Shown: positions 4,710 through 5,795 of the stretch, piece after piece | How the letters are laid out: every line of letters begins with the position of its first letter | Numbering within the stretch: position 1 is the stretch's first letter | From: an uncultured Eggerthellaceae bacterium | Lineage (GTDB): Bacteria > Actinomycetota > Coriobacteriia > Coriobacteriales > Eggerthellaceae | Assembly: GCA_903789415.1 (NCBI GenBank) | Contig: CAIFEG010000002.1 | Coordinates: forward strand, 83,730 to 147,729 | Direction: 5' to 3' | DNA: 64,000 bases | The notes under the pieces: generated by a model | Told to the model about the DNA's origin: nothing | The model's input: the letters and a program-made list of their open reading frames with translations, nothing else | Databases searched by the model: none | Position numbers and translations under genes: made by a program

Positions 4710-5795
4710 ATGGATATCGTGCTGATGATCATATATTGTGTTTTGATCCTGGGATTTCTTGTCGTGATCCATGAGGGCGGCCATTATTTTATGGCGCGTG
4801 CCTTTGGTGTGCGCGTAAGCGAATTCATGGTGGGACTTCCGGGCCCAAATATCGGATTCACCGCAAAAAATGGTACGAAATACGGCATTACCGCCGTTCC
4901 TTTGGGCGGATATGCGCGCGTGTGCGGCATGGAGCCGGGGGACGAGAGTCCCTACCTTGAAGATGCTGCGGCAATCGTTTTTCGCGAAGGCACCGTAAAC
5001 ATGGATGATGTGGCAGCAGAACTCCATATCGCAAAAGACGATGCGTATACTGCCCTCAGTGAGCTTGAAGAATGGGGCACCATCGCGGGGCCGCATCGCA
5101 AAGATAAATACAATACATTCCGCACGAAAGCTGTGTTTGGCGATAAAGGTCGTACGCCTGTGTTCGCCGAAGGCACGCCGCAAAAGATTCCTGCGAGCAG
5201 CGTCAAAGCATTTATCGATTCCGAGCGAAAGCAACAATATCGAAGCCTTCCGTTCTGGAAACGCAGCATGATCTTGATTGCGGGTCCTGGTGTTAATGTT
5301 CTGTGCGCCATCCTTTTGATTGTTCTTTTGTATTCGGTCATCGGTGTTGATATGACGACGGCTGAAGGAGAAGTGCAACATGTAACGATCAGCCCTCTGC
5401 GTTCCCTTGAAGCGGGATTCATCTATACGGGAATGGTGATCCAGGCTGTGGCGGGGCTGTTTAATCCGCAAACTGCCGCGCAGGTCGTGTCGGATTCCAC
5501 TTCTGTTGTTGGTATCGCAGTGATGTCAAAGCAAGCCGTTGATCAGGGTTTTGCTTCAATTATGGCGTTTACGGCAATGATTTCGGTATCTCTTGGCATC
5601 ATGAATATGCTTCCGATTCCCCCTCTTGATGGAGGACGATTTATCGTCGAAATTGTACAGCGTCTGCGCCACAAGGAAGTCACGATTCGCGCCCTGAACT
5701 ATATGAGTATCATAGGTATCGCGTTTTTCATGGCGTTCTTCGTTGTCATGCTCAACCAAGACGTCCAACGATTTGTATTTAACAACTGGGGTTAA
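4710..5795 (+). CDS. M50-family site-2 metalloprotease, variant lacking a PDZ domain
   Basis: Predicted intramembrane zinc protease of the RseP/RasP family, which cuts membrane-anchored anti-sigma factors and signal-peptide remnants. The 361-residue protein has HEGGH at residues 21-25 in the first membrane helix, VPLGGY near 63-68, AGPGVNVLCAILLIV near 191-205, and NMLPIPPLDGGRF as the second metal-binding motif. Between VPLGGY and AGPG there are about 120 residues rather than about 40. Part of this (about 90-130) looks like a winged-helix unit. Only about 22 residues follow the second membrane helix, where RseP has PDZ domains. The ATG at 4710 has GAAAGGG nine bases before it. The target is unknown. 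Confidence 0.85.
   Translation: MDIVLMIIYCVLILGFLVVIHEGGHYFMARAFGVRVSEFMVGLPGPNIGFTAKNGTKYGITAVPLGGYARVCGMEPGDESPYLEDAAAIVFREGTVNMDDVAAELHIAKDDAYTALSELEEWGTIAGPHRKDKYNTFRTKAVFGDKGRTPVFAEGTPQKIPASSVKAFIDSERKQQYRSLPFWKRSMILIAGPGVNVLCAILLIVLLYSVIGVDMTTAEGEVQHVTISPLRSLEAGFIYTGMVIQAVAGLFNPQTAAQVVSDSTSVVGIAVMSKQAVDQGFASIMAFTAMISVSLGIMNMLPIPPLDGGRFIVEIVQRLRHKEVTIRALNYMSIIGIAFFMAFFVVMLNQDVQRFVFNNWG

Follow-up and report, generated by a model that had tools for sequence, protein, structure and literature searches.

The protease described here is a family-wide variant of a well-known enzyme, the RseP-type M50 site-2 protease, in which a predicted winged-helix domain sits in a cytosolic loop and the extracytoplasmic PDZ domain is absent; the mechanism that we attach to these changes is only proposed. 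The gene lies in a window of 64,000 nucleotides (the whole stretch of DNA that was analysed, from an uncultured Eggerthellaceae bacterium), where an open reading frame at positions 4710-5795 of the forward strand encodes a protein of 361 aa, a site-2 protease of the M50 type that belongs to the RseP lineage. The winged helix extends through the class Coriobacteriia and the PDZ loss through the family of the window, probably Eggerthellaceae, so that together they form a natural experiment on target selection by proteases of this type.

The assignment to the RseP lineage draws on a Pfam match to Peptidase_M50 (E 1.4e-47), on the NCBIfam RseP model TIGR00054, for which the score of 150.3 bits is barely above the curated cut-off of 147.55, and on gene order, with dxr and ispG flanking the gene. 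The locus is the standard cluster pyrH-frr-uppS-cdsA-dxr-[M50]-ispG-proS, the neighbouring genes being named by reading their sequences, and the cdsA/uppS/dxr/frr neighbourhood of RseP has been reported as general (PMC6411480). The closest solved proteins by sequence, RseP and an Aquifex site-2 protease, align with the protein both before and after the insert, and likewise around the site of the missing PDZ. A second M50 protein over the Pfam cut-off in the same genome is short and of a different type, and lacks both RseP patterns, HExGH and N..P...LDG. Protein scans of genome and viral contig collections gave few relatives.

Site-2 proteases fall into four groups: group I with PDZ domains, group III with a CBS domain and no PDZ, and groups II and IV, which have no additional domain (PMC10202637). 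Group I enzymes cut within the membrane, as a rule following site-1 cleavage of the substrate. The 361-aa protein has the zinc motifs of the group I core (HExxH and NxxPxxxLDG), and in the Pfam search neither a PDZ domain nor a CBS domain was detected in it at E<=10, the latter setting it apart from group III (SpoIVFB type). Since all 42 family members searched are without PDZ, the protease is, judged by its sequence, an RseP-lineage protein and not a textbook member of group I.

The first transmembrane helix (TM1, residues 1-35, positions 4710-4814; all features are on the forward strand) carries the HEGGH zinc site at residues 21-25, with H21, E22, G24, and H25 invariant in the 42 family members. 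It is followed by the membrane-reentrant beta-loop segment (residues 36-74, positions 4815-4931), which ends in VPLGGYARVCGM and is placed by its alignment to solved RseP and its high conservation. The winged-helix domain comes next as a cytosolic insert (residues about 81-140, positions 4950-5129), delimited from the model, the fold search, Pfam TrmB/MarR matches, conservation, and charge, and is joined to TM2 by a linker (residues about 141-170, positions 5130-5219) in which length and sequence are most variable. TM2 (residues about 187-212, positions 5268-5345) was placed by alignment with PDZ-bearing relatives and RseP, and leads into a PDZ-site remnant of about 20 residues (213-232, positions 5346-5405), where the PDZ model matches no family member searched and every relative tested outside the family. 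A conserved segment before TM3 (residues about 233-290) is retained, and TM3 itself (residues 291-320, positions 5580-5669), the most conserved block, contains the zinc-ligand motif NMLPIPPLDGG at residues 299-309. Judged by these motifs, the protease would be active. In an observation confined to the linker, an Ala/Pro-rich lengthening occurs after the winged helix in two genera (L070, L071), and the linker is nearly absent in another (L072).

Several statements of the original prediction, made from the letters of the window, agree with this layout. The HEGGH and NxxPxPxLDG motifs are intact as it had proposed, and the long gap that it described before the second membrane helix corresponds to a GGY-to-GP loop of 129 residues, compared with 36-47 residues in 20 of the 23 M50 proteins that represent the phylum's other classes. 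The insert accounts for ~108 of these residues (about 78-185), and the winged helix for its first ~60. The stretch from N196 to N299, the usual seat of the PDZ domain, has 104 residues, compared with about 180-200 normally. The claim that only about 22 residues remain after the second helix is right for the PDZ site and wrong for the whole region before TM3, where the conserved segment mentioned above is kept.

According to both structure prediction and sequence matches, the insert holds a winged helix. AlphaFold2 models were built from two sequences, those of the window protein and of L033 from a Coriobacteriia bacterium. For residues 73-184, the model gives the winged-helix part a pLDDT of about 90 and shows three predicted helices (83-93, 98-105, and 109-121) plus wing strands in the arrangement proper to the fold, in the order helix-strand-helix-helix-strands. 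The full-length model has a mean pLDDT of 49, probably because two sequences alone were given as input, and the winged-helix domain is its sole confident part. The best 50 Foldseek matches are nearly all winged-helix proteins, with E-values of 0.004 and above. VIA-align likewise returned a list of almost only winged helices, including the Z-alpha domain 4wcg_A with a Z of 8.9 and an rmsd of 1.5 A over 60 residues; as a Z near 8 is weak on its own, the claim rests on fold, secondary structure, and sequence matches all pointing the same way. Among 46 inserts searched against Pfam, 19 matched TrmB and 12 MarR_2 (best 2.5e-7). A profile of the insert matched DDRGK1 and FtsK gamma in the PDB with weak E-values, and, outside M50, wHTH proteins including FtsK-like and IclR-like sequences. 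The winged helix first suggested from the sequence is thus what the prediction returned, and neither a PDZ-like fold nor a disordered loop.

The proposed check for the insert in all Coriobacteriia M50 proteins gave profile matches in 290 of 298 sampled genomes. Of the eight others, G006 alone encodes an intact RseP, which contains a PDZ-like region but not the insert; no complete RseP was found in the remaining seven. The G006 protein (L171), with its PDZ-sized region, may represent a state before the insertion or a later loss. Outside Coriobacteriia, the insert profile gave weak matches only, to wHTH-type sequences, and none of the 23 readable M50 proteins from the rest of the phylum showed the winged-helix insert; the three of these with longer loops comprise one of 73 residues and two with other long inserts. 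Loops of 143-144 residues occur at the same site in two M50 proteins of other classes in the phylum (L144, L159), apparently similar to one another and unlike the winged helix.

Bacillus RasP and Enterococcus RseP resemble the window protein in having dxr and proS as neighbours and a long insert (a loop of 117-118 residues) at the same cytosolic site, whereas their insert has no winged-helix profile match (E > 0.1) and their PDZ is retained. An insert common to Bacillus RasP and the window protein was rejected on this ground: the site is the same, yet the profile does not match. Because the Bacillus and Enterococcus proteins have a long non-matching loop there, the site is one that tolerates insertion, and the novelty lies in the kind of domain only.

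The absence of the PDZ domain, also part of the original prediction, extends to the whole family: PDZ models match all 32 tested members of other families and none of the 42 of the window's family, and in none of the 78 family genomes with a match does the aligned protein have space for a PDZ (L070-L072 were read directly). In a tree of the M50 core, from which the insert and PDZ columns were excluded, PDZ loss appears as one change with an SH-aLRT of 96, obtained with a quick method and no bootstrap. All 32 of the PDZ-bearing relatives also have the winged-helix insert. An example is the Collinsella aerofaciens M50 protease WP_320678013.1, which shares with the window protein the dxr-M50-ispG order and the same insert (profile E 3e-25), but retains the PDZ. 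This protein and the named relative L033 support the assignment of the insert-bearing group to Coriobacteriia. Because every tested PDZ-keeping relative has the winged helix, the latter came first, and on this distribution it is the older feature and the PDZ loss the later one.

By the established topology of RseP, the PDZ lies outside the cell after TM2 and the loop before TM2 is cytosolic, which puts the winged helix and the PDZ on opposite faces of the membrane. From this placement and from the greater age of the winged helix, it follows that neither module replaced the other. The proposal that the winged helix took over the gating role of the PDZ was consequently discarded, given that the two co-occur in every tested member of the other families. 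A transfer of the PDZ into a neighbouring gene is not supported: there are three PDZ_2 matches in the window's genome (ORFs of 542, 457, and 548 codons, the first being HtrA), none of which adjoins the M50 gene.

The third helix of a winged helix is the DNA reader in DNA-binding members of the fold. The mean charge of the equivalent helix is -6.1 in the family and -2.4 elsewhere in the class, compared with +1.5 in 20 DNA-binding-type wHTH sequences found outside M50 with the same profile, and the charge of the whole domain is about -5.5. FtsK gamma, TrmB, and MarR winged helices have the same fold and sequence pattern as the insert, but the latter has an acidic third helix where theirs is basic, and it is embedded in a membrane protease. 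Because the recognition helix is acidic, and not basic or neutral as in a DNA-binding winged helix, DNA binding is unlikely, and the DNA-binding module initially envisaged is disfavoured. An alternative in which the winged helix binds DNA or RNA, so that the protease is anchored to the nucleoid or a target transcript, would agree with the fold matches, which are mostly nucleic-acid-binding (Z-alpha, MarR, FtsK gamma); nevertheless, a common fold gives no proof of function, and with the charges given above we regard such a tether as very improbable.

Residues 110, 111, 117, 118, and 121 are acidic in most family members. Among 56 PDZ-less proteins, position 117 is acidic in 47 and position 118 in 48; among 32 PDZ-bearing ones, the counts are 3 and 0. 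No family member departs from W122 or G123, and L119 is invariant in PDZ-less and PDZ-bearing groups alike. Conservation of this acidic face points to a protein partner of basic character, and a protein-binding role, which the original prediction had named beside DNA binding, is the reading that we favour. By the positive-inside rule, the cytosolic juxtamembrane part of substrates would be a natural candidate for this partner. The domain could instead be purely structural, packing on the protein's own basic juxtamembrane helix or on the reentrant loop, and stabilising or gating the enzyme with no outside partner. The juxtamembrane segment beside the acidic helix is basic (+2.9) and well conserved, and the linker is free to vary; its range from nearly nothing to more than 50 residues, however, is a better fit to a loosely tethered module, although not decisive, and a purely structural role seems to us fairly unlikely.

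One sigma-70 region 2 protein was detected in the window's genome (G000), as in 11 other family genomes, and the protease is kept in all 12 of these single-sigma genomes, which include the one-contig assemblies G004, G127, and G146. Because single-sigma genomes keep the protease, sigma factors and anti-sigma cleavage are probably not at the centre of its shared role, although anti-sigma processing may still take place in the sigma-rich family members. ECF sigma factors are not detectable in G000, G004, G127, and G146, whereas other family genera have 12-15 sigma factors. For E. coli RseP, a clearance of signal peptides and small membrane proteins has been described (PMC8144685, PMC10470546), and such clearance would fit as the job of the protease studied here.

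The PDZ might then have been lost by relaxation, once anti-sigma substrates had disappeared and a pure cleaner of signal peptides and small proteins needed no filter. The retention of the protease in the single-sigma genomes is consistent with this, but the PDZ is just as absent from the genera with 12-15 sigma factors, and a PDZ-bearing member of the same order, G278, has one sigma factor, so that the PDZ state does not track sigma number today. Loss of sigma factors fails as a simple rule for PDZ loss for the same reason, and we consider relaxation an unlikely account.

Another explanation concerns an HtrA-type serine protease of 540 aa that has a PDZ domain and a single membrane anchor at its N-terminus (L181:3161-4783; G000:C2 about 81890-83512), whose gene ends about 220 bases upstream of the window start. 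HtrA is encoded upstream of the M50 gene and on the same strand in all 22 family genomes tested, 4.4-77.5 kb away (4-31 kb in 21 of them and 77 kb in one), and is unlinked to the M50 gene in all 20 PDZ-bearing relatives tested. HtrA could act as a site-1 protease, and the PDZ function may have been handed over in trans to this linked, PDZ-bearing enzyme, which would feed clipped substrates to the M50 protease. The 22 genomes, however, descend from one ancestor and count as a single event, the relatives also have HtrA elsewhere, and the linkage is one of gene positions; a handover to HtrA is thus improbable in our estimate. The acidification of the third helix and the HtrA linkage both coincide with one branch, and neither is an independent test.

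We propose a two-step change of regulatory parts, combining a protein-docking winged helix with the loss of a PDZ size filter, and we give this explanation as a whole, tentatively, a little less than an even chance. In the first step, for which the basis is the distribution, the winged-helix domain was inserted near the base of Coriobacteriia into the cytosolic loop between the reentrant beta-loop and TM2. In the second, based on the distribution and the tree, the extracytoplasmic PDZ was lost in the ancestor of the window's family, leaving the 20-residue link. We infer that the winged helix docks proteins and does not bind DNA: its acidic third helix, lying on the cytosolic side close to the active-site loop, would engage the basic juxtamembrane part of substrates or an adaptor.

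The PDZ domains of E. coli RseP have been proposed to act as a size-exclusion filter and partner of site-1 cleavage (PMC10202637). Such a filter would prevent the cutting of targets that are still intact. In its absence, a substrate would enter once its outer domain is short, be it a signal-peptide remnant, a small membrane protein, or a protein already clipped by a site-1 protease, for which the PDZ-bearing HtrA is an example. The shared task of the enzyme would probably be a sigma-independent membrane clean-up, with anti-sigma cleavage as at most an extra in sigma-rich genera. A stronger claim, that substrate choice moved from the outer face, where the PDZ acted, to the inner one, where the acidic winged helix captures an adaptor or the cytosolic tails of substrates, the family having been PDZ-free since its ancestor, is possible but rather doubtful. 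A PDZ-less family that retains the enzyme is in itself a natural test of the size-filter idea, and the presence of a cytosolic winged helix across the class suggests that target recognition by site-2 proteases can take place on the inner side as well.

In the literature searched, we found no description of a winged helix in RseP-type proteases or of a PDZ-less RseP in the family of the window, although such absence is not proof. E. coli RseP (group I, TIGR00054) has the same HExxH and NxxPxPxLDG core, reentrant loop, and profile lineage as the window protein, but differs in its two PDZ domains and in a cytosolic loop that is short, whereas the window protein has the winged-helix insert there. 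SpoIVFB is likewise a site-2 protease without PDZ, and its substrate needs no site-1 cut; it differs in belonging to group III, with a CBS domain (PMC10202637) that the window protein lacks. A 269-aa RseP-like M50 protein, with neither the insert nor room for a PDZ, is encoded on an IMG/VR contig (L095:5007-5816).
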